From contig CAIOMN010000092.1 in NCBI GenBank assembly GCA_903859415.1, forward strand, positions 1 through 35,365: a DNA stretch of 35,365 nucleotides, in the 5' to 3' direction. A model generated the notes under the pieces. That model saw only the letters and a list, made by a program, of their open reading frames with translations, searched no databases and was not told where the DNA came from. Of the stretch, positions 17,785-32,579 are shown one piece after another (within the stretch, counting starts at the first letter, position 1; every line of letters begins with the position of its first letter). The position numbers were made by a program, and so were the translations under genes. Source of the stretch: an uncultured Methylococcaceae bacterium (lineage in GTDB: Bacteria; Pseudomonadota; Gammaproteobacteria; Methylococcales; Methylomonadaceae).

Positions 17785-18717
17785 TTATTCTAGACGATTA
17801 TTTACTTTTAAAATATCGACTGCTGTTTCCAAGAGGTGAAAAACGATATTAATCGTTGTACTATTAATATCCAAACTAGGATTAAGCTCCGTAATTTCGA
17901 AACAGACAACTCTTTCATCACGTAAAATAACACCGATGAGATCTGCTGCTTCCTTGGGCATAATACCATTCTCAACAGGTAGTCCTGTACCTTTTGATAT
18001 AGAGCCATCTAAACAGTCTGTATCAAAGGAAAGATAAATCTCCGTACACTCTTTCAGATACTCTAAAATCTGCTCACCTAGTGGCATTGCTTTCCTATCA
18101 TGTAATTCCGCAGTTGAAAAGTTTCGTATGCCTAATTTTTCAATAAGATAAGCTTCTTGTTCTTCTAAATCACGGACCGATACATATACCACATCCGAAG
18201 GCCTGGTTTTTTCGAATACCCCCCCGATTAATTTTAACTGACTCCAAAACTCTTGAGTCATTTTATCAGGGTCTCTGAATAGACAGGCTAAATTATCTAC
18301 CCCTAAAGCTGCCGCTACCGGCATTCCATGCATGTTTCCAGAAAAAGAGGTAAACGGCGTATGCAAATCTGCATGTGCATCAACCCAAATAACACCTAGC
18401 CGTGATTCGGGGTTAGCCTTTTTAATGCCTGCTATTGTTCCTGCTGCACTACTATGATCACCTGACAATACAATTGGAAAATGACCAGAGACCCGTGAGT
18501 CACACACCACCTCACAAACGGATTCAGAGATATTAAGAACCTGTTCAATGTGCTTGGCATACTGAGAGCTAAAACCTTCTGGAAAAGCGACAACACACGC
18601 GGTGGTCTTTAACTGATCAAACTGACGGGATTGCTTGGCTAAATTTAACAACGCATTGATGCCTTGATCAGCGCCTCTAACCCCTGCCCCTATGTCAGAG
18701 CAAACTGTAATAATCAC
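17785..18717 (-). CDS. arginase family ureohydrolase, probably arginase
   Basis: A 310-residue manganese ureohydrolase. Metal ligands lie in GDHS (His88), DAHAD (113-117) and SFDTDCLDG (about 230). SGNMHGMP (126-133), right after DAHAD, resembles the arginine-binding loop of true arginases more than that of agmatinases, so arginine to ornithine plus urea is favoured. The GTG at 18717 has AGGGAG six bases upstream. It follows the two polyamine genes but is separated from them by an intrinsic terminator (18757-18796), so it may be partly independent. Ornithine would feed putrescine and then carboxyspermidine synthesis. Confidence 0.85.
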   Translation of the reverse strand: MIITVCSDIGAGVRGADQGINALLNLAKQSRQFDQLKTTACVVAFPEGFSSQYAKHIEQVLNISESVCEVVCDSRVSGHFPIVLSGDHSSAAGTIAGIKKANPESRLGVIWVDAHADLHTPFTSFSGNMHGMPVAAALGVDNLACLFRDPDKMTQEFWSQLKLIGGVFEKTRPSDVVYVSVRDLEEQEAYLIEKLGIRNFSTAELHDRKAMPLGEQILEYLKECTEIYLSFDTDCLDGSISKGTGLPVENGIMPKEAADLIGVILRDERVVCFEITELNPSLDINSTTINIVFHLLETAVDILKVNNRLE

Positions 18718-18756
18718 AACTAACTCCCTAAACCTATTACTGTTTATGATTATTCT

Positions 18757-18796
18757 AAATAAAAAAGGCTGTTCCTCGAAATGCAGAAACAGCCCC
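18757..18796 (-). terminator. intrinsic terminator after the carboxy(nor)spermidine dehydrogenase gene
   Basis: Read on the minus strand: GGCTGTT, a 14-base loop, AACAGCC, then TTTTTTATTT. It sits between the stop at 18823 and the arginase start at 18717. Confidence 0.8.
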
Positions 18797-18822
18797 CATC
18801 ATTTACTATTCAGATAATGTTA

Positions 18823-20205
18823 CTATTTATCTTTTTTCTTGTCAGATTTCTTCTTTTTATCTGAATCCGCTTTTTTAGGTGTAACCGCAATCATGGGATT
18901 AGCTGCAGACACTGTCACAGTTGCAGTTGAGTGCTGAAGCTCTTTCTCAAGGGACCTAACATAACCATCAAATGAATGCTTACTATCAGGCTTAATTTCT
19001 TTAATCTCAGTTGGCAAGCCAATTCGATCAAGAATTTCAATAAACGGCTCTGGATCAAGCTCTTCAACATTGACCATAGTTTTTGCATCCCAAACCCCAT
19101 TAGCCACTAACATAGCCGCCGCTACAGGTGGTACACCCGCCGTATAACTGATACCTTGAGACTCAATCTCTTCATAACATTGCTTATGGTCAGAGACTTG
19201 ATAAATCAGAATCTCACGCATTATTCCATCTTTTGAACCTTTAACAAAGGTTCCAATACAGGTTTTACCGGTATAGCCAGGTGCCAAAGTCATAGGGTCT
19301 GGCAGAAGCGCTTTAACAACCTTTAACGGCACCACTTCTTGCCCAGTGGTTAAGGTAACCGGCAGATGCGACAGGAAGCCCAGTGTACGCAATACCGTAA
19401 ACACGTTAATATAATGATCACCAAACCCCATCCAGAATCGAATACTGTTTGCATCGATATTTTTAGACAAAGAATGCAACTCATCATGACCATTCAAATA
19501 AACTGGTTGATGACCCACCACAGGAAAATCATATTCTCGTTTCACAGAATGAGTAGGAAACTCTTGCCACTGACGATCTATCCAGGTCCAAACCTTAACG
19601 AACTCACGGAAATTGATTTCAGGATCAAAGTTAGTTGAGAAATACCGACCATGACTTCCCGCATTAACATCCAGGATATCAATCGTATCAATCGTGTCAA
19701 AATAACGTTTAACCGCAAGCGCACAGTAAGCATTAACAACTCCCGGATCAAAACCTGCACCCAAGATAGCCGTAACGCCTTTTTCAGCACAACGGTCTTT
19801 ACGTTTCCATTCATAGTTAGCATACCAAGGTGGCTCTTCACACACCTTATCCGGATCTTCATGAATGGCTGTATCAATATAAGCAACACCTGTTTCAATA
19901 CAGGCTTCCAATATCGACATATTCAGGAAGGCCGATCCAAGATTAATTACAATTTCGGTCTTGGTCTCATTGATCAACTTAATGGTCGCAGGAATATCCA
20001 GAGCATCCAGTTGAGCAGAATACAGTCTACCTTCTGGATTTTTTAAGTGACCTTTACGAAGTACACTTTCAATAATTGCATCGCATTTAGCTTGCGTCCG
20101 CGATGCGATACAAATGTCACCAAGAACATCATTGTTCATAGCCGCCTTATGAGCGGCAACGTGTGCTACGCCGCCTGCTCCGATAATCATTACGTTTTTT
20201 TTCAT
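18823..20205 (-). CDS. carboxynorspermidine/carboxyspermidine dehydrogenase (saccharopine dehydrogenase family)
   Basis: A 460-residue reductase of the Lys1/saccharopine dehydrogenase fold. The N-terminal Rossmann motif is IIGAGGVAHVAAHKAA (residues 7-22), followed by a central catalytic domain with GAGFDPGVVNAYCALAVK and DVNAGSHGRYFSTNFDPEINFREF. It reductively condenses a diamine with aspartate semialdehyde to carboxyspermidine or carboxynorspermidine. The partner decarboxylase gene nspC lies 20 bases upstream, which settles the pathway. Oddity: about 35 residues at the C-terminus form an added tail ending in a lysine/aspartate-rich stretch (KKADSDKKKKSDKKKDK). AGAGGA lies upstream of the ATG. 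Confidence 0.9.
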   Translation of the reverse strand: MKKNVMIIGAGGVAHVAAHKAAMNNDVLGDICIASRTQAKCDAIIESVLRKGHLKNPEGRLYSAQLDALDIPATIKLINETKTEIVINLGSAFLNMSILEACIETGVAYIDTAIHEDPDKVCEEPPWYANYEWKRKDRCAEKGVTAILGAGFDPGVVNAYCALAVKRYFDTIDTIDILDVNAGSHGRYFSTNFDPEINFREFVKVWTWIDRQWQEFPTHSVKREYDFPVVGHQPVYLNGHDELHSLSKNIDANSIRFWMGFGDHYINVFTVLRTLGFLSHLPVTLTTGQEVVPLKVVKALLPDPMTLAPGYTGKTCIGTFVKGSKDGIMREILIYQVSDHKQCYEEIESQGISYTAGVPPVAAAMLVANGVWDAKTMVNVEELDPEPFIEILDRIGLPTEIKEIKPDSKHSFDGYVRSLEKELQHSTATVTVSAANPMIAVTPKKADSDKKKKSDKKKDK

Positions 20206-20225
20206 ACTTATGGATCCTCTTCTTA

Positions 20226-21332
20226 TTATGATAGACAGCCAATGTAATCGTTATAGTCAAAACTGCGTACCCGTTCTATCGTTCCATCCAACCTTCGCAC
20301 CACAATAGCAGGCATTGCGACCCCATTAAACCAGTTCTTCTTTACCATTGTATAACCCGCAGCATCTGCGAAGCGTATTTCGTCACCCACCTTTAAGGGG
20401 TGATCCAGCTCATAACTGCCAAACAGATCACCCGCCAAACAAGTTCGTCCAGCAATCATAATAGGGTAAGCGCCCTCCTCGGGTGATGAAACTCTCGGAT
20501 TTGTTTGGTAAATCAAATGATCCAGCATATGTGCTTCAACAGACGCATCAATAATTGCAATATCTACTTCGTTATGAACAATATCAAGCACAGTAGTCAC
20601 CAACTCGGCACTGTTCGTAATGGCCGTTTCACCGGGTTCAAGGTAAACCTGTACGCCATAGTTCTTTGCAAAATCTTTTAGGACCTGGCAGAATTTTTCC
20701 AAGGGATAACCCGCCTTAGTAAAATAAATGCCGCCACCAAAACTAACCCAAGCCATCTTTTTTAACAGACTCGCGTAATTGATGCCGATTTGCTCAATGG
20801 CTTCGGTAATATTATCCACATCATCATTTTCACAATTAAAATGAAACATCAAACCGCTTAATTTATCAGCAACCGACTCCAGATCTTGAACATTACAGAC
20901 GCCAAGTCTGGAACATCGCCGTGCAGGATCAGCCAAATCAAAATGAGAATAACTGATACCGGGATTGGCTCTAAGTCCTAGCTTTAAATGGCTGACCCGA
21001 CCGTAAAATCGGATTAACTGGGATACAGAATTAAATATCACCTTATCGGCAAACTTAGAAACTTCATCGATCTCGTCAGATGAATAGGCGACGCTGTAGG
21101 CATGAACTTCTTTCCCAAACTTTTCGTAACCCAATCTGGCTTCGAAAAGTGAACTGCTGGTTGTACCATCCATGTATTGACGCATCAGGTCGAAAACACT
21201 CCACGTTGAAAAACATTTTAGTGCCAGGACGGATTTGGCTCCGGATTGCTCCCGTATGAACTGGATGATTTCAAGATTTTTTTTAAGTGCGACTTCGTCA
21301 ATAAGATAATACGGGGTGTGTAACTGCGACAA
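20226..21332 (-). CDS. nspC: carboxynorspermidine/carboxyspermidine decarboxylase
   Basis: A 368-residue PLP enzyme of the alanine racemase-like fold. The PLP lysine lies in SVLALKCFSTWSVFD, followed by DGTTSSSLFEARLG, HFNCEN, SFGGGIYFTKAGYP, EPGETAI and RTCLAGDLFG near the C-terminal active site. It releases CO2 from carboxy(nor)spermidine to give (nor)spermidine. The start is the TTG at 21332: CGAGGT lies about 7 bases upstream and SQLHTPYYLIDE matches the family start. An ATG at 21380 lies inside the spacer of the promoter (21368-21396) and cannot be on the transcript. It heads the polyamine run. Confidence 0.93.
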   Translation of the reverse strand: MSQLHTPYYLIDEVALKKNLEIIQFIREQSGAKSVLALKCFSTWSVFDLMRQYMDGTTSSSLFEARLGYEKFGKEVHAYSVAYSSDEIDEVSKFADKVIFNSVSQLIRFYGRVSHLKLGLRANPGISYSHFDLADPARRCSRLGVCNVQDLESVADKLSGLMFHFNCENDDVDNITEAIEQIGINYASLLKKMAWVSFGGGIYFTKAGYPLEKFCQVLKDFAKNYGVQVYLEPGETAITNSAELVTTVLDIVHNEVDIAIIDASVEAHMLDHLIYQTNPRVSSPEEGAYPIMIAGRTCLAGDLFGSYELDHPLKVGDEIRFADAAGYTMVKKNWFNGVAMPAIVVRRLDGTIERVRSFDYNDYIGCLS

Positions 21333-21367
21333 ATTTAAAACCTCGTAAAATGTTATATACAAAAAAC

Positions 21368-21396
21368 AGCATAAAGTCATCGTTACGGTTTGTCAA
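21368..21396 (-). promoter_or_regulatory. strong sigma70 promoter of the nspC operon
   Basis: A perfect -35 TTGACA (21391-21396), a 17-base spacer and -10 TATGCT (21368-21373) predict a transcript start near 21361. This leaves a leader of about 30 bases to the TTG start and excludes the upstream ATG at 21380. Confidence 0.85.
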
Positions 21397-25420: not shown

Positions 25421-28219
25421 TCAACCAGTATTCCTCATCCCCGCAGCGATAGCATTAATGGACCGCAACAGTGGCTTCATCCAGGGACTTTCGGCCGGAT
25501 TAGTTGAATCAATTTCTCGCACCTTACGGAGTAAATACACCTGCAGATAATTGAGCGGCCCAAGATAGGCATCTCGGCGATGTAATGAATCTGCCAATAC
25601 CGGGTTCTCCGACAACAATCTATCCGTATCTGCAACTTTTAGAATCCAGTCCACAGCTAGCCGGTGTTCGCTCGCAATTAACCCATAAACAAGCTGACTA
25701 GTCTCAGTATCGAGACACAGACTGGCATATTCCTTGGCGATATCCATGTCCGATTTGCTGAGCGCCATCTGGGCGTTACTCAACAGATTACGAAAAAATG
25801 GCCAATCCCGGTACATTTCCTGCAACTTTTCCAGACGCTCTGGCCTGCCGTCACACCAGGTCGACAGACTTAAGCCAATCCCGTACCAGGCTGGAAAGGT
25901 TTGCCGTGACTGCGCCCAAGAGAATACCCAACCAATCGCACGCACCGAATTTTTGGAGCGATCACCCTTTTTACGGTGTGACGGGCGTGAACCGATATTA
26001 AGACCACCGATTTCGCTGGTCGGGGTAGCTTCGTAAAAATAATCCAGAAAGCCGGATGAGCGCTCAGTCAGGTCACGATATCCTTGCTCACCGATCCGTG
26101 CCAACTCATCCATCACGGCCAAATTCTCCGAACGATCGCATTGCACGGGTTGCACCAGACTGATACTGGACTTGAGCAAACCGGTCACGCCCATCGTCAA
26201 TTCATAAACGGCGGTTTCCATATTATTGTAACGGTAGAACAGCACTTCGCCCTGTTCGGTGAATTTGATCTGACCGCGCACCGTATCAGGTGGCTGCGCC
26301 AGAATTGCCTCATGAGTTGGACCGCCGCCCCGCCCTACCGTACCACCTCGACCATGAAACAAACGGCACTTAAGTCCGTGCTGTTCTGCGATAGCAATAA
26401 TTTGCCGCTGTGCTCGTGACAGTCCCCAGGATGAAGCTAAAATACCGCCGTCTTTACAGGAATCAGAATACCCCAGCATAATTTCCTGGCTATCACCAGA
26501 AACTCGCAATAATTCCCGATACACTGGAGTATCAAACAGCCGGGTAAGCACCTCTTCTATCCGGTTGAGATCATCTATGGTTTCGAATAAAGGACTCACC
26601 CCGATATGACAATGCCAATGGCCACCAATACGCCCAACCAGACAGGTTTGTGCAGCCAGTAACATCACCTCCATGACATGACTGGCATTGTGCGTCATGG
26701 AAATTACATATTTACCAAAACAATCCGAACCAATTTCTCGTTTCATTCGAGCCATAACTTCAAATGTTTCTAAGGTCTCGCGACTGGTCGAAGACAAAGA
26801 ACTGAGATCAAACATCAGCCCACCGGGAACAGCGATGGCCTCGCTTAGCAGATCGAGGCGCTGCCCTTCATCCAAAGCGCGATAATCCACTCCCAGTGCA
26901 GCCGCCAAAATATCCGCCACCGCCTCGGTATGCCGTCCCGATTCCTGGCGCACATCCAATTGCATCAAATAAAAACCAAACGTTTCAGCAAGACGAATTA
27001 AATCATGCAGTTCTAAATCGGCAATTGCTGCATCACCGTGGCCGCGTAAGGAAGCATCAATTTGCCTTAGATCGTCCAAAAACGCATTTATACCCGGATA
27101 GGCATGACGATTCGGCAGGTCCGGTTCGCCCCTCAGATTTTGTTGAACTTGCAGAAGAGCACACTCCATCCGGTACTTCATCAATGCTAGTTTGTGTCGG
27201 TAAGGTTCCTGCAAATAGGGTTTTTCTAGCTCCGCTACCGAAGCGCCCAGCATAACCCGATCGACTTCGAGGCTGGCTAAAAAATCCGTCGATAGTTCGC
27301 AAAAGCCCTCAGAATGGGAAAGCTGTCCGCGCAATTCATCAAGTCGATTAATGTATTCCTGTAAGATAGTTTGGGCCTGCATACGCAAAGCCAAAACCGT
27401 CGTTTCCGAGGTAACATTGGGATTACCGTCGCGATCACCACCAATCCAGGAACCGAATCCTAAAAAGCTGGGGACACGGATTTTCCGTGCCACTTCTTCA
27501 CCATAGACATCACTCAGAGACCGTTCAAAATTCCGATAAACGCGAACAGTTGCCTGAAACAGAGACAGTGGAAAATAGAACAGCCCAGCGTCAATCTCGT
27601 CTGCCACCCCTAACTTACGTGCACGCACCTCATCAGTCTTCCAGAGCATTTGAATCTGACATTGCAAACGTTCGAGCGCTACTTCATGAAAATAGCCTTT
27701 CATGCGATTATTGCTCAACGCTTCCAGCGTAAGAAACACATTCCGCAGGGCACTCTTGACCGTACGCCGTTTAACCTCTGACGGATGGGCTGTTATCACC
27801 GGGAGATACAATAGTTCATCCAGCAGCACCTGGAGCTTGTCTGCGGTAACCCCTGACTCCTTGAGCGTCAATAAGGTGTCGTGAAAAGAGCAAGGCCAAT
27901 AGTGACCACCTTGTTCTGCTTTATGCCGACGTATACCGAGGTAATGAGATTCTTCGGCAATATTGAGCAAGCTAAAATAGAGATTAAATGCACGCACCAC
28001 TTCACCAAGGGCATCAGAATCCAGGCCATCTACAACATTCTCCAAATGCCAACGCTTGGACAAACTGCCGTCACTTAGTGATCCGGCAAAACGCTTTTGC
28101 AATTTTTCAACCGTATCGACCGTTTCAGGCCGAGCCTGAGTTTTTAATACCTGCTTCAATACGGAGTCCATCTGGTGAATCGTGTCATCGAGTTCTTTAT
28201 CTTCAAAGGGTATGTTCAC
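25421..28219 (-). CDS. ppc: phosphoenolpyruvate carboxylase
   Basis: A 932-residue PEP carboxylase, which fixes bicarbonate onto PEP to give oxaloacetate. Catalytic motifs: ITAHPSEVKRRT (catalytic His; the usual HPTE reads HPSE), GSWIGGDRDGNP, LGYSDSCKDGG, FHGRGGTVGRGGGPTHEAI and the C-terminal MRNTG. The start is the GTG at 28219, with AAGGAG 7 bases upstream; a longer frame from 28249 runs over that site. By hand count the gene is richer in GC than its neighbours (33/60 at 26101-26160 against 24/60 inside the P450 gene). It is the third gene of a bestrophin-carbonic anhydrase-ppc run. Confidence 0.98.
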   Translation of the reverse strand: MNIPFEDKELDDTIHQMDSVLKQVLKTQARPETVDTVEKLQKRFAGSLSDGSLSKRWHLENVVDGLDSDALGEVVRAFNLYFSLLNIAEESHYLGIRRHKAEQGGHYWPCSFHDTLLTLKESGVTADKLQVLLDELLYLPVITAHPSEVKRRTVKSALRNVFLTLEALSNNRMKGYFHEVALERLQCQIQMLWKTDEVRARKLGVADEIDAGLFYFPLSLFQATVRVYRNFERSLSDVYGEEVARKIRVPSFLGFGSWIGGDRDGNPNVTSETTVLALRMQAQTILQEYINRLDELRGQLSHSEGFCELSTDFLASLEVDRVMLGASVAELEKPYLQEPYRHKLALMKYRMECALLQVQQNLRGEPDLPNRHAYPGINAFLDDLRQIDASLRGHGDAAIADLELHDLIRLAETFGFYLMQLDVRQESGRHTEAVADILAAALGVDYRALDEGQRLDLLSEAIAVPGGLMFDLSSLSSTSRETLETFEVMARMKREIGSDCFGKYVISMTHNASHVMEVMLLAAQTCLVGRIGGHWHCHIGVSPLFETIDDLNRIEEVLTRLFDTPVYRELLRVSGDSQEIMLGYSDSCKDGGILASSWGLSRAQRQIIAIAEQHGLKCRLFHGRGGTVGRGGGPTHEAILAQPPDTVRGQIKFTEQGEVLFYRYNNMETAVYELTMGVTGLLKSSISLVQPVQCDRSENLAVMDELARIGEQGYRDLTERSSGFLDYFYEATPTSEIGGLNIGSRPSHRKKGDRSKNSVRAIGWVFSWAQSRQTFPAWYGIGLSLSTWCDGRPERLEKLQEMYRDWPFFRNLLSNAQMALSKSDMDIAKEYASLCLDTETSQLVYGLIASEHRLAVDWILKVADTDRLLSENPVLADSLHRRDAYLGPLNYLQVYLLRKVREIDSTNPAESPWMKPLLRSINAIAAGMRNTG

Positions 28220-28270
28220 AGCTAGGCTCCTTCTGGTTAATAAATGCAATTTTTTTACATGCGTCTGATA

Positions 28271-28918
28271 CTAAGGGTTATTAATAATTAACGTATCTTC
28301 ATAAAAACTGACTTCACCTGTTGAAATGTCGTGGATGCCTCCAACAATCGCAATTGCGCCCGTTTCAATCATGTCCTTTAAAATAGGGCTGCGTTCAATA
28401 ACAGCCTGTACCGTTCTTTTTACATTGATGGTAGACACTTTTTCTACAAATTCTTTATTGCCTGAATGTCTATTTTCAGTTTCGGTTTTTTCATCATAAA
28501 CCGCCGGCTGAATCTTACTTAACAGTGCGGTCAGGTTGCCCATTTCCACATGGTCACAAGCACCTTTTATAGCGCCACATTTGGTATGACCTAACACCAC
28601 TATAATTTTTGACCCCGCCACTTTGCAACCAAATTCCATACTACCCAGAATATCTTCGTTAATAATATTACCAGCAATCCGCACACTAAATACATCCCCC
28701 AATCCCTGGTCAAATATCAGCTCAACCGAGGTACGGGAATCAATACAACTTAAAATAACCGCAAACGGATGTTGTCCGTCAGACGTTTCATTAGCCTGTT
28801 GCAGCAAATTACGGTTTACTTTAAGGTTATTGACAAAGCGTTTGTTACCTTCTTTTAATAACTCCAATGCCATTGCAGGCGTAATGGCGGCTTGCATCTC
28901 TTTGGTTAAAGTTTTCAT
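28271..28918 (-). CDS. beta-class carbonic anhydrase
   Basis: A 215-residue beta-carbonic anhydrase, interconverting CO2 and bicarbonate. Zinc ligands are Cys58, His111 and Cys114 (HTKC). Asp60/Arg62 in CIDSR form the catalytic dyad, with Ile at the usual Ser position of CSDSR. No signal peptide is seen, so it acts in the cytoplasm. The ATG at 28918 has AAGG 7 bases upstream; a TTG at 28948 is rejected. It lies 65 bases after the bestrophin gene and 51 before ppc, whose substrate is bicarbonate. No terminator is seen in either gap. Confidence 0.95.
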   Translation of the reverse strand: MKTLTKEMQAAITPAMALELLKEGNKRFVNNLKVNRNLLQQANETSDGQHPFAVILSCIDSRTSVELIFDQGLGDVFSVRIAGNIINEDILGSMEFGCKVAGSKIIVVLGHTKCGAIKGACDHVEMGNLTALLSKIQPAVYDEKTETENRHSGNKEFVEKVSTINVKRTVQAVIERSPILKDMIETGAIAIVGGIHDISTGEVSFYEDTLIINNP

Positions 28919-28983
28919 TTTTATGCCTTGAAAAGTGTTATGTTTCAAACCGGTTTATAATTGTTTAATCGTTCTTTAAGAAT

Positions 28984-29907
28984 TCAACTGAGTTGCCGCT
29001 GTTCCAACAACGTCAGGCAATTTAGTTTGATACTGTCGCAAATAGAGTGCAAAGGTAAGTGACTTAAATTTTTAGTGCTGAAAGGATTTTGTAGCTCGAT
29101 ACCAATTCTATCTAAAGATAACAATGGATAAGCGACTAAAAAATAAATAAATACGGCACTGAACTCCAAATTTTCAATTAATGAAAACGGCAGTAATAAC
29201 AAAAAAATAAAAATAAATCGTCTAGCTTTAATAGCATAAACCAATGGCATAGGTGTTTTAAGAATTCTTTCACAGCCGCCAATGTGGTCAATCAGCAAAA
29301 TACGTTGCCCTTCTAGTTTTTCAAAAACAAAGCCATCTATCTGATGAGTAACCCGAGCCTGTTGTAATAAAAACGCCAGTTTGTTGGCAACAAATAGCGG
29401 CATGTGACCAGAAGACCTCAGTGCCTCAAGCTCCTGCTGACTGAGTAAATCGGTTAACTCATCTAAGTTCTTGCTATTGCGTAAGTATTCTCTGGCCGCA
29501 AAAGAAAAGGCAACCGTCCACTTCACCATTTCTTTACACCACTGCCTGTCTTGAGGATTGTCATTTAAATCTTTACTGTAATTTAAAGCCTGAATGACGA
29601 GGTTTCTGCTTTGGTTATTTATACCCCCCCATAATTTTCGAGCTTCCCACCAGCGTTCGTGACCGGTATTTGTTCGAAATACCAGAACCATACCAAGTAC
29701 TACGCCAGTATATTCAAATGGAGTCACAGCAAGATGTGATAATGGTCGCCAGTATTGATCTAGGGCAACTATTAGTAAACAGTAACAAGTCAATAACAGC
29801 AGACTGGGTAATATGCGTGGTGTAATCGAACCTCGCCACATGACGGCGCCACGCAAAAAACCCGATGATTCATCTTTATTGCTATGTAACTCTATAGAAT
29901 TTTTCAT
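28984..29907 (-). CDS. bestrophin family ion channel
   Basis: A 307-residue membrane protein of the bestrophin (UPF0187) family. It has an N-terminal span SLLLLTCYCLLIVAL, the signature EYTGVVLGMVLVFRTNTGHERWWEARKLWGGI, and paired spans near the end (FIFIFLLLLPFSLIENLEF, AVFIYFLVAYPLLSLDRIG). Bacterial and algal members form pentameric channels; some algal ones carry bicarbonate. The ATG at 29907 has GAGG 9 bases upstream; a TTG at 29922 overlaps that site. First gene of a run with carbonic anhydrase and ppc, and divergent from a TetR-type regulator. A bicarbonate role is inferred from these neighbours. Confidence 0.92.
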   Translation of the reverse strand: MKNSIELHSNKDESSGFLRGAVMWRGSITPRILPSLLLLTCYCLLIVALDQYWRPLSHLAVTPFEYTGVVLGMVLVFRTNTGHERWWEARKLWGGINNQSRNLVIQALNYSKDLNDNPQDRQWCKEMVKWTVAFSFAAREYLRNSKNLDELTDLLSQQELEALRSSGHMPLFVANKLAFLLQQARVTHQIDGFVFEKLEGQRILLIDHIGGCERILKTPMPLVYAIKARRFIFIFLLLLPFSLIENLEFSAVFIYFLVAYPLLSLDRIGIELQNPFSTKNLSHLPLHSICDSIKLNCLTLLEQRQLS

Positions 29908-29999
29908 AGTGTTTATCCTCAAACAAAAATACTATTGGCCAACTTTCTTTAGCGTTTCTTTTTATAAGTCAGTACAAAAATAGTAAATAAATCTTGGAT

Positions 30000-30029
30000 G
30001 ATAGTAACACTATCTTTGCAAATTGCAAA
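30000..30029. promoter_or_regulatory. two adjacent inverted repeats, candidate TetR-family operator
   Basis: GATAGT-AAC-ACTATC (30000-30014) is directly followed by TTTGCAA-A-TTGCAAA (30015-30029). Both are perfect. They lie between the divergent bestrophin and regulator genes, and the second overlaps the -35 of the regulator promoter. Confidence 0.6.
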
Positions 30030-30044
30030 ACTTTCGGTTATGCT
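30016..30044 (+). promoter_or_regulatory. promoter of the TetR-type regulator
   Basis: TTGCAA (30016-30021), a 17-base spacer and TATGCT (30039-30044) predict a transcript start at about 30051, which is the ATG itself. The mRNA may therefore be leaderless. Confidence 0.6.
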
Positions 30045-30050
30045 TTTTCC

Positions 30051-30722
30051 ATGAACATACAATTAAAAATTAATATGAATGATAAATTATTCATCAGGGA
30101 CCCAGAGCAATCCGAACTGGGAAAAAAAATCATTCTGCACAGTATTCAGTTAATCCACAAAAACGGATTTGAAGCCTTTACCTTTAAAAAACTGGCCTTA
30201 GACATTGGAACGACAGAAGCAGGTATTTACCGATATTTTGAAAACAAGCATCGGTTGCTGATCTACCTGACCGCCTGGTATTGGAGCTGGCTTGAATATC
30301 AGGTTACTTTTCAGACCAACAATATCAAGGACCCGGCTGTTAAGCTCAAGCAGGTAATTAAATTATTGGCTACTACAGTGGAAGACGATAACAGCACGCT
30401 TTATGTCAACGAAAGTATCCTGCATCAAATCATTATTACCGAAGGCACCAAAGCCTATCTAACCAAACGGGTATCCGAAGATAACAAAGATCATTTGTTT
30501 AAACCCTATAAAGATCTTTGTGCATTAATCGGCAATATGATTTTGGAGTGTAATCCCGACTACACATACCCGAAATCATTAGCGTCCACTATTATTGAAA
30601 TGGCGCATTTCCAGAATTTCTTTATGAACAACCTACCCTCACTGACTGACTTTGGGCAAGATAAAAATGAGGCAGAGATTGTGAAGTTTCTGGAGGATTT
30701 GGTGTTTTCAAGTATAAAATAG
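30051..30722 (+). CDS. TetR family transcriptional regulator
   Basis: A 223-residue regulator. The N-terminal helix-turn-helix (IHKNGFEAFTFKKLALDIGTTEAGIYRYFENKHRLLIYLTAWYW) is typical of TetR, followed by an all-helical ligand/dimer domain with no recognised ligand class. It is divergent from the bestrophin gene, and the shared region holds two inverted repeats. It probably controls itself and the bestrophin-carbonic anhydrase-ppc run (inference). The start is uncertain: the ATG at 30051 coincides with the predicted transcript start, an ATG at 30075 is an alternative, and neither has a ribosome-binding site. Confidence 0.88.
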   Translation: MNIQLKINMNDKLFIRDPEQSELGKKIILHSIQLIHKNGFEAFTFKKLALDIGTTEAGIYRYFENKHRLLIYLTAWYWSWLEYQVTFQTNNIKDPAVKLKQVIKLLATTVEDDNSTLYVNESILHQIIITEGTKAYLTKRVSEDNKDHLFKPYKDLCALIGNMILECNPDYTYPKSLASTIIEMAHFQNFFMNNLPSLTDFGQDKNEAEIVKFLEDLVFSSIK

Positions 30723-30797: not shown

Positions 30798-30851
30798 AAT
30801 GACCCATCATAAAAAATTATCATCGACTTAATTTAACCCATGGAATTGAAA

Positions 30852-32579
30852 ATGGAAAAATTACGCCTTGCCTACATTTTAACAGCTTTGCTTTTTACGC
30901 AAACTTGCCTGGCAACGGACAAAGCCTTACTGGACATATTGTTAAACAACAAAGTAATTGGCCAGGAACAATACAATACTTTGATCAAATCGGGTACAGG
31001 CGATGTCAACCCTACGCTGTTGGAAGTGCTCAAACAAAACGGTGCGATTAACCAGGATCAATATAACAAATTGGCAAAAGAACAAGAATCCACATCTGAA
31101 ACTACTGAGATATCGACAGCAAATCAGAATGCCTTTTCTGTCAATAATCAAAGCCAGGGGAATAATGACATCCTTCACATGCACCCGGGTATCAATGAGG
31201 GTGGCGCGCCGGAACCTCATCGAGTAGGTACGGAAGTTTTTCCTGGCGTTCATGCAACGTTCGGCGGCTTTATCGAGGCTGCTGGCATTAATCGCTCAAA
31301 AAATGAAAGTCAGGATGTAAATTCCAATTCCAATACATTTATCCCTTTTAATAACAGCACTAACGCCTATCAGTCGGAGTTTAGGGAGTCAGCTCGTCAA
31401 TCACGAATTTCTTTGTTAATGGAAGGGAAGTATCAGGAAGACATAAAATTGGCCAGTTATCTGGAAATGGATTTTCTGGGTGTCAGTTCTGCGAATTCGA
31501 TTCAGGCTAGCCCCTACTCGCCACGATTGCGACTAGGCTATGCCACTATCGATTGGATAGAAGAAGGTTGGCATTTTCTAGGAGGGCAATCATGGAGTTT
31601 GGTGACGACCAACAAAGTCGGCATTAGTCCGCGGACGGAAAACCCGCCATTAACGATAGATGGGGGATTTATTCCAGGTTTCAATTATGCACGCAGTTCA
31701 CAACTCCGATTAGTGAAAGATTTTGCCGACCACACCATTTGGGCCGCTCTATCCCTCGAAAGTCCACAAGCGAATTTACTGGGCCTAACCGTACCAGGAA
31801 CCGCCTATAACAGCAGTGCTGCTGTTACAGCGAATAATCCCGGAGGTGGCTCATTGAGCCCTTCCGTCAATTATTCAACTGATGTCGCACCTGACATTAT
31901 TACCAAGCTGGCTTTCGATCCGGGTTGGGGGCACTATGAATTATTCGGCATGACACGTTTTTTCCATAGCACTATCAATAATGCCGCCAACACCCAATTG
32001 TCCAATCATACCGTAGAAAGCCTCGGAGGCGGTTTCGCCGCGTTGCTGCCAATTGTGCCCAAACTTTTGGATGTGCAATTGAATGTTATGGGTGGTAGCG
32101 GCATAGGTCGTTACAGCACTGCCCAACTTCCGGATGTTGCGTTTTCCACGTCCGGTGCGCTAATGCCTTTAACCCAATATACTGCTTTATTGGGCATCAT
32201 TGCACATCCTGATCCGAAATGGGATTTTTATACCTATTGGGGGGGTGAAGTCGTTAATCGCTATAACCAATCCGTCACCGGAAATATGCCTTCATCGACA
32301 ATACCTATGGCGGCCGCCTACGGTTACGGAAACTCTAATCTGAACAATTACGGTTGCGCTGTGTTAGGAGGCGCTTGTTTTGCTCAAACATCAAGTGCAT
32401 GGCAAATTACGCCCGGTTTTTGGACGACGATTTACGGTGGTAATGCGGGTACAGTTAAAGCCGGTTTGCAATATGCATACACCAGAAGAAATGCTTTTAG
32501 TGGTCTGGGCGGTTATGCGCCTCATACCGATGAGAATGCGTTTTTGTTTTCATTTCGTTACTATCCTTTACAAAAATAA
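30852..32579 (+). CDS. outer-membrane beta-barrel porin-like protein
   Basis: A 575-residue exported protein. The signal peptide is cut after CLA (residue 21). Then come two copies of a short helical motif (LLDILLNNKVIGQEQYNTL and LLEVLKQNGAINQDQYNKL), a Ser/Asn/Gln-rich linker, and a long series of amphipathic beta strands (HATFGGFIEAAGINRS, SRISLLMEGKYQED, RLRLGYATIDW, VKAGLQYAYTRRNAF) ending in FSFRYYPLQK, as in porins. The substrate is unknown. ATG 30852 is preferred because GGAA lies upstream; ATG 30840 is possible. A perfect FNR box upstream suggests control by oxygen. Confidence 0.8.
   Translation: MEKLRLAYILTALLFTQTCLATDKALLDILLNNKVIGQEQYNTLIKSGTGDVNPTLLEVLKQNGAINQDQYNKLAKEQESTSETTEISTANQNAFSVNNQSQGNNDILHMHPGINEGGAPEPHRVGTEVFPGVHATFGGFIEAAGINRSKNESQDVNSNSNTFIPFNNSTNAYQSEFRESARQSRISLLMEGKYQEDIKLASYLEMDFLGVSSANSIQASPYSPRLRLGYATIDWIEEGWHFLGGQSWSLVTTNKVGISPRTENPPLTIDGGFIPGFNYARSSQLRLVKDFADHTIWAALSLESPQANLLGLTVPGTAYNSSAAVTANNPGGGSLSPSVNYSTDVAPDIITKLAFDPGWGHYELFGMTRFFHSTINNAANTQLSNHTVESLGGGFAALLPIVPKLLDVQLNVMGGSGIGRYSTAQLPDVAFSTSGALMPLTQYTALLGIIAHPDPKWDFYTYWGGEVVNRYNQSVTGNMPSSTIPMAAAYGYGNSNLNNYGCAVLGGACFAQTSSAWQITPGFWTTIYGGNAGTVKAGLQYAYTRRNAFSGLGGYAPHTDENAFLFSFRYYPLQK

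Follow-up and report, generated by a model that had tools for sequence, protein, structure and literature searches.

The window analyzed here, positions 1–35,365 of contig CAIOMN010000092.1 of an uncultured Methylococcaceae bacterium, carries three minus-strand genes for a bestrophin, a beta-carbonic anhydrase (CA), and a phosphoenolpyruvate carboxylase (PEPC), which face a divergent TetR-family regulator across a palindrome. We lean toward reading this locus as an operon for inorganic carbon and anaplerosis, controlled by TetR, in a methanotroph without RuBisCO, with the bestrophin acting as a bicarbonate outlet in the slot that a SulP carrier fills in relatives. That bestrophin, CA, and PEPC function together under common regulation is highly probable, whether the bestrophin conducts bicarbonate is close to an even call, and net bicarbonate uptake is improbable. 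The union of inorganic-carbon handling with anaplerotic carboxylation in one module is well supported.

Pfam and NCBIfam matches confirmed the layout given in an earlier reading of this DNA (the original prediction), namely same-strand bestrophin, CA, and PEPC genes separated by 65 and 51 bases, with a divergent TetR gene. The bestrophin gene (28984–29907, minus strand, ATG at 29907) encodes a member of the Bestrophin_2 family, with residues 21–302 covering positions 8–286 of the 288-position PF25539 profile (246.8 bits, cut-off 27). The CA (28271–28918, minus strand, ATG at 28918) belongs to the PRK15219 subfamily (PF00484, 136.2 bits; NF011765, 253.6 bits, cut-off 221), is closest among solved chains to 2a5v (103.8 bits), and is the sole strong beta-CA match in its genome, the other match reaching only 42 bits. 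Its residues C58, H111, C114, and D60/R62, which we take to be the zinc ligands and the catalytic dyad, are intact and unchanged across 13 aligned CAs. The PEPC gene (ppc, 25421–28219, minus strand) encodes a protein that aligns to the whole PF00311 profile (positions 1–919 of 919, 948.8 bits, above the curated cut-off) and scores 875.5 bits against NCBIfam NF000584 (cut-off 815). The bestrophin-CA gap (28919–28983, minus strand) measures 65 bases, a spacing identical in three relatives (L205, L206, and L207); the CA-PEPC gap (28220–28270, minus strand) measures 51 bases if PEPC starts at the GTG at 28219 and not at the alternative ATG at 28171 or TTG at 28249, and the PEPC of one relative (L291) begins VNISSDDKEL at the place matching this GTG. 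As predicted, the gaps appear free of terminators: a sequence scan found no minus-strand terminator-like site in either, and the three genes are probably co-transcribed. The regulator gene (30051–30722, plus strand), assigned from a TetR_N match (PF00440, 34.1 bits), ortholog searches, and an alignment of 27 sequences, most likely starts at the ATG at 30051 rather than the TTG at 29994, going by its orthologs.

The region between the TetR and bestrophin genes contains the palindrome GATAGTAACACTATC (30000–30014), which we propose as the TetR operator on the basis of a comparison of ortholog upstream regions and a genome motif count. Its exact core, GATAGTnnnACTATC, occurs once in the 3.72-Mb genome of the window, at this very position, and a reversed control pattern occurs 0 to 2 times per genome among the matches listed, and not at all in the window's genome. 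One clear TetR ortholog per genome is present in 38 of the 151 sampled genomes of the family (74–95% identical, fragments aside), with no second match at E 1e-15 in these 38 genomes except for a gene split in two pieces in G048; at the level of the order, 50 of 301 genomes carry the regulator, every one of them from the same family (this sample overlaps the 151). The loci compared contain 35 orthologs, 34 of them with 300 bases of upstream sequence, where the typical palindrome reads AAAGATAGTAAYACTATCTTT. Within those 300 bases, GATAGTnnnACTATC is found with at most one mismatch for 30 of the 34 orthologs, 22 of these being exact; all 540 kb of the loci hold exactly 30 and 22 such sites, with none away from TetR, although the motif was derived from the same loci used to count its specificity. 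Across the family sample, the exact core with any spacer occurs in 40 of 151 genomes, 25 of which carry TetR (p = 1.8e-9), and the subset with an AAC/AAT (GTT/ATT) spacer occurs in 23 genomes, all 23 with TetR (p = 1.8e-17); of the two, the any-spacer statistic is the fairer measure, the subset having been picked after the TetR-linked sites were known, and both p-values overstate significance, since the genomes are related and hence not independent samples. Additional exact palindromes in G080 (contig C231) and G022 (contig C8) lie inside called open reading frames (ORFs) and look like chance; G080 holds two further sites with other spacers.

With an N-terminal helix-turn-helix and a palindrome in the divergent intergenic region, the protein has the features of a TetR-family local repressor, and it is likely a dedicated regulator of the module. 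We found no description of such a regulator among the matches listed from the open-licence literature. Its predicted model is weak (pLDDT 68.4), with FadR, QacR, and AibR as best fold matches (E about 2e-4 to 3e-4), and its score against the NCBIfam FadR model (28.4 bits) is far below the cut-off of 200. The predicted structure was too weak a guide to the ligand, and a ligand assignment from it was set aside.

The bestrophin occupies a slot held by SulP in relatives. On the far side of the palindrome, the 38 TetR genomes first show SulP in 14 cases, CA in 7, bestrophin in 6, and a type I secretion operon in 5, the other 6 having no clear gene there, ending at a contig end, or not having been examined; these tallies, like those of pyruvate carboxylase and bestrophin context below, were read by eye from crude gene calls (longest non-overlapping ORFs), with the neighbors of L197, the G121 locus that holds a TetR fragment, left out. 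A CA or CA fragment comes after SulP in 11 of 14 cases and after bestrophin in 4 of 6, and the linked CA is 80–92% identical to that of the window in ten aligned relatives, whether preceded by bestrophin, SulP, or no carrier. TetR is followed by pyruvate carboxylase A/B genes in 12 genomes and by a divergent PEPC gene in 2. Within the genus of the window, two genomes show the same TetR-palindrome-bestrophin-CA-PEPC order (G263, whose PEPC ends at the contig end, and G281), two show TetR-palindrome-CA-PEPC (G264 and G265), and one shows TetR-palindrome-SulP-CA-PEPC, with the CA broken, the PEPC interrupted, and small ORFs in between (G240); a genome of another genus (G049) has TetR-palindrome-SulP-(partial CA)-PEPC. 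In L250, from a strain of Methylobacter tundripaludum, pyruvate carboxylase is followed by TetR, the palindrome, and a bestrophin. In G144, SulP faces TetR across a one-mismatch site, and a separate contig, without TetR, carries a bestrophin-CA pair behind its own exact palindrome, an arrangement that suggests regulation in trans. A single gene run in G057 combines a SulP-CA fusion with SulP, bestrophin, CA, and PEPC, and no TetR ortholog was found in that genome. Apart from the secretion genes, the TetR partners are all consistent with bicarbonate, be it as substrate, as product, or as possible cargo. Conservation of the neighborhood in relatives had been named beforehand as a test that could refute joint function, and its outcome is favorable; the conserved gene group, the divergent TetR, the operator-like palindrome, and the bicarbonate-themed partners (SulP, CA, PEPC, and pyruvate carboxylase) lend good support to the joint function and regulation that the original prediction had proposed.

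No SulP stands beside the CA of the window, as it would in a SulP-CA bicarbonate transport operon; the bestrophin is in that place. Two SulPs elsewhere in the host genome score 375 and 370 on the profile of the TetR-linked SulP, compared with 882–974 for four full-length TetR-linked SulPs, and the host apparently has no ortholog of this linked SulP. On host contig C97, a pair of tandem SulP genes precedes a gene for a 708-residue membrane protein (locus L303, 5280–8613); the genes after the SulP pair resemble hydrogenase-4/NDH-type subunits by eye and possibly form another inorganic-carbon system. A 13-kb contig assigned to Candidatus Nitrotoga (L216) carries a Methylobacter-type TetR, a one-mismatch palindrome, bestrophin, CA, and SulP; its bestrophin nests among Methylobacter bestrophins in the tree, reflecting either horizontal transfer or contamination.

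The proximity of bestrophin and CA exceeds chance. PF25539 bestrophins are present in 30 of the 151 family genomes, PEPC in 50, and Pro_CA in 149, the genomes with a Pro_CA match holding just 1 to 8 such matches each; of 25 clade bestrophins in this sample (24 loci read by eye plus fragment L104), 12 have a CA adjoining or one gene off. Beyond the family, we scanned the contigs of relatives, retaining 80 named loci out of 175 relatives, and compared 76 bestrophins, one per locus, namely the window's and those of 75 among the 80 loci; L242, L254, L258, L274, and L282, in which the profile called no bestrophin, were left out of the pairing and residue counts. A CA lies within three same-strand genes of 32 of these 76 bestrophins (12 downstream, 20 upstream), and the CA-neighbor label requires 15 changes on the bestrophin tree versus a mean of 28.5 when shuffled. 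Such pairs occur in Planctomycetota, Melainabacteria, Bdellovibrionota, one deltaproteobacterial record, and Methylococcales, and a small gene near the CA encodes an ArsR-type regulator in six scanned pair loci. In a Legionellaceae locus (L272), genes for a DabB-like Proton_antipo_M protein and DabA precede the bestrophin, with a DUF6671 gene in between, and in a locus from Planctomycetota (L283) DabA comes directly before the bestrophin. DUF6671-type proteins are also encoded near CA or bestrophin in L172, L174, and L092 (Methylobacter-type) and near the bestrophin in a second Legionellaceae locus, L271, which has a P-II-like protein as well (the assignment was made by scan in L172 and L272); the DUF6671-type protein is possibly an unrecognized inorganic-carbon accessory protein.

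Judged from sequence, PEPC also pairs independently with a second CA subfamily. Seven PEPC genes (in G133, G076, G103, G009, G007, G095, and G108) have a second-subfamily CA directly upstream, which scores 248–254 bits versus 361–380 for most linked CAs; the one aligned CA of this subfamily (L054) is 26% identical to the CA of the window. A bestrophin near PEPC in G039 (L056) was not counted, being a member of a divergent group (279 bits, lacking glutamate at the position discussed below) encoded on the opposite strand. The idea that PEPC and pyruvate carboxylase are strict alternatives was dropped: several genomes seem to have PEPC together with a PycB-sized match. PF02436 matches occur in 146 of 151 genomes, seemingly through a widespread second, OadA-like paralog, PycB-type and OadA-like proteins being told apart by match length alone among the matches listed.

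The AlphaFold2 monomer model of the bestrophin (pLDDT 89.0) has a bestrophin fold, the best 50 Foldseek matches all being entries of KpBest, the Klebsiella pneumoniae bestrophin, or entries that the same series labels “membrane protein” (E 3.3e-13, target TM 0.88, and 27% identity to KpBest). Sequence comparison, too, puts KpBest closest among solved structures (133.6 bits). PF25539 alone matched in the Pfam scan of the bestrophin, PF01062 being absent at E 0.001; a PF01062 search of the host genome gave zero matches, with controls equally silent. By alignment to KpBest, the neck consists of V69, M73, and F77 (V-M-F), with the acidic E65 one helical turn outside it, and thus departs from the I-F-F neck rule for anion bestrophins given in PMC8496536.

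Several observations weigh against the interpretation we favor. The middle neck residue is M, L, V, or I, and never F, in all 76 bestrophins. The glutamate outside the neck is present in 23 of 23 full-length clade members from a hidden Markov model (HMM) search and in 73 of the 76 bestrophins, the latter count being the more biased because TPFEYTG served as a search seed; four divergent bestrophins of the same HMM search lack it. In PMC8496536, KpBest is reported as a Na+ channel, its I66F variant moves selectivity toward Cl−, the human hBest1 I76E variant prefers Na+, and several residues act jointly in selectivity. The pore chemistry, as predicted by alignment, therefore tilts to cations, although this is a lean and no proof, since E65 lies outside the neck proper. 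The gene context, which points to bicarbonate, conflicts with the pore chemistry, which points elsewhere. Of the 76 bestrophins, 44 have no CA neighbor (meaning that our CA profile matched nothing within three genes on the same strand at gaps of at most 300 bases, contig ends counting as no CA), 6 of the 25 clade bestrophins adjoin suf genes without a CA, and the bestrophins facing the palindrome in G042 and G065 have no CA adjoining. The secretion genes that face the palindrome in five TetR genomes are left unexplained by a bicarbonate theme. The TetR-linked SulP passes the PF00916 cut-off but falls short of the NCBIfam thresholds for BicA (114 of 880 bits), DauA, and sulP, leaving it a possible, unproven bicarbonate carrier. 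Finally, good palindromes are missing for 4 of the 34 TetR orthologs (L177, L183, L187, and L188, with sites only at 2–4 mismatches), and we identified no promoter, promoter-like sites in the scan being at chance level (13 versus 13.0 expected).

Members of the same bestrophin clade lie near suf (Fe-S cluster assembly) genes in several genera, often between SufB and SufC (L083, L084, L085, L088, L095, L096, L097, L098, and L104, and by gene sizes L220, L231, and L234), and three of these loci (L083, L096, and L098) also have a CA. The secretion genes form an ABC-HlyD-OEP operon of type I (L181, L182, L192, L193, and L195), and in G044 a gene of unknown kind for a 149-residue protein sits between the palindrome and these genes.

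The pore features lend themselves to an alternative in which operon and regulator are the same and the bestrophin is a channel for Na+ or another cation that keeps charge, pH, or turgor in balance during rapid CA and PEPC activity. The reported Na+ selectivity of the nearest solved relative, the non-aromatic neck, and a glutamate conserved in the clade and not in the four divergent bestrophins all speak for it. We nevertheless consider it a minority possibility: the bestrophin holds the slot of SulP behind the same palindrome and with the same CA alongside, and in a few loci of other phyla it adjoins DabA or SulP. A Na+ leak would, moreover, counteract Na+-driven bicarbonate symport. The SulP family, for its part, includes known bicarbonate transporters, according to PMC11423575.

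The original prediction took the same genes as a route for net bicarbonate entry through the bestrophin that feeds PEPC, in the manner of an algal carbon-concentrating mechanism, a scenario that we consider improbable. The grouping of bestrophin, CA, and a carboxylase agrees with it, as does the proposal, in PMC6708349, that Chlamydomonas BST1-3 bring HCO3− to CA; SulP in the same slot could also import, import or export having been proposed for M. capsulatus in PMC11423575. The algal step, however, is driven by a pH gradient with an acid lumen (PMC6708349). The methanotroph has its CO2 supplied internally by methane oxidation, and the appeal to algal bestrophins finds no support in this protein, which belongs to PF25539 and not PF01062, has KpBest as its nearest solved relative, and has a V-M-F neck with E outside. 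At an inside-negative membrane, a passive anion channel favors anion exit, so the claim of uptake lacks support and is the least likely among the versions with joint function. A third view denies any joint function, with TetR controlling itself and a chance neighbor, and bestrophin, CA, and PEPC adjacent through drift. The 5 of 38 genomes in which secretion genes face the palindrome and the 6 of 25 clade bestrophins beside suf without a CA would agree with this, but the pairs of bestrophin with CA, CA with PEPC, and bestrophin with PEPC recur in shuffled order, including PEPC with the second CA subfamily, and we give the view hardly any credence. A chance neighborhood of the three genes is largely ruled out by its conservation.

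In the operon interpretation that we favor, a TetR dimer would bind the palindrome at 30000–30014 and repress the operon of bestrophin, CA, and PEPC together with its own promoter until a metabolite ligand frees it, and derepression would lift CA and PEPC together. CA would equilibrate CO2, abundant from methane oxidation, with bicarbonate, which PEPC would turn into oxaloacetate for the tricarboxylic acid cycle. The bestrophin, replacing the SulP carrier of relatives, would let bicarbonate cross the membrane along its gradient and, at an inside-negative potential, would more likely serve as an outward relief route than for uptake.

The host assembly (3.72 Mb, 99.94% complete, 2.48% contamination) contains two PF02461 (AMO/PmoA) matches, and among the matches listed the closest named bestrophins come from Methylococcaceae metagenome assemblies (98, 93, and 92% identity), followed by Methylobacter records at 83% identity and lower; we infer from these that the host is a methanotroph in or near Methylobacter. 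No RuBisCO was matched in the host genome (PF00016 search, 0 of 1 genome, controls matched in 5 of 14). The predicted “anaplerotic fixation” therefore amounts to anaplerotic carboxylation. Elsewhere in the window, a 579-residue ORF after TetR (30840–32579, plus strand) has a signal-like N-terminus and, by eye, repeated segments of the type LL..LL.N..I.Q.QYN; it matches neither Pfam nor NCBIfam and is possibly an outer-membrane protein. Three neighboring genes at 17785–21380 (minus strand) resemble agmatinase, carboxynorspermidine dehydrogenase, and carboxynorspermidine decarboxylase by eye.

As a hypothesis, the locus offers a concrete role for bacterial bestrophins in inorganic-carbon handling with CA, and the presence of SulP or bestrophin under one regulator and palindrome amounts to a natural swap experiment. 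In gammaproteobacterial methanotrophs, which attract interest for methane conversion, the regulator would couple the supply of bicarbonate to PEPC or pyruvate carboxylase. More tentatively, and with somewhat more doubt than belief, we suggest that a clade of bacterial bestrophins are inorganic-carbon channels with their own beta-CA partnership, parallel to the algal pairs, which can displace SulP under the same regulator; the acidic ring at the channel mouth would in that case let bicarbonate through by a mode of selectivity that differs from known bestrophins and might, for example, be pH-gated. We did not find the module described among the matches listed from the open-licence literature (titles and abstract starts).

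Compared with known systems, the bestrophin is nearest to KpBest (PDB 4wd7 and others), with which it shares a non-aromatic middle neck residue; KpBest has an I-I-F neck where the window has V-M-F and, as aligned, a serine in place of the glutamate, and the bestrophin of the window, unlike KpBest, sits in a CA/PEPC operon. The Chlamydomonas BST1-3 and CAH3 system, as described in PMC6708349, likewise has bestrophins working with a CA in inorganic-carbon handling, but it consists of thylakoid channels, a lumenal CA, and RuBisCO, whereas the window has a bacterial Bestrophin_2 protein, a beta-CA, and PEPC, in a host with no RuBisCO match; a RuBisCO-based carbon-concentrating mechanism thus does not describe it. 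Distant bestrophins adjoin DabA/DabB-like genes of the kind found in DAB complexes (L272 and L283), while DabA is not among the five window proteins scanned, a whole-genome search for it not having been made. The CA3-SulP pair of M. capsulatus (PMC11423575) resembles the window in that a methanotroph keeps a beta-CA next to a membrane carrier, and relatives with SulP-CA pairs keep the regulator, palindrome, and CA ortholog of the window with SulP where the window has the bestrophin. The locus belongs with these CA-plus-carrier operons, with a bestrophin in the carrier slot.

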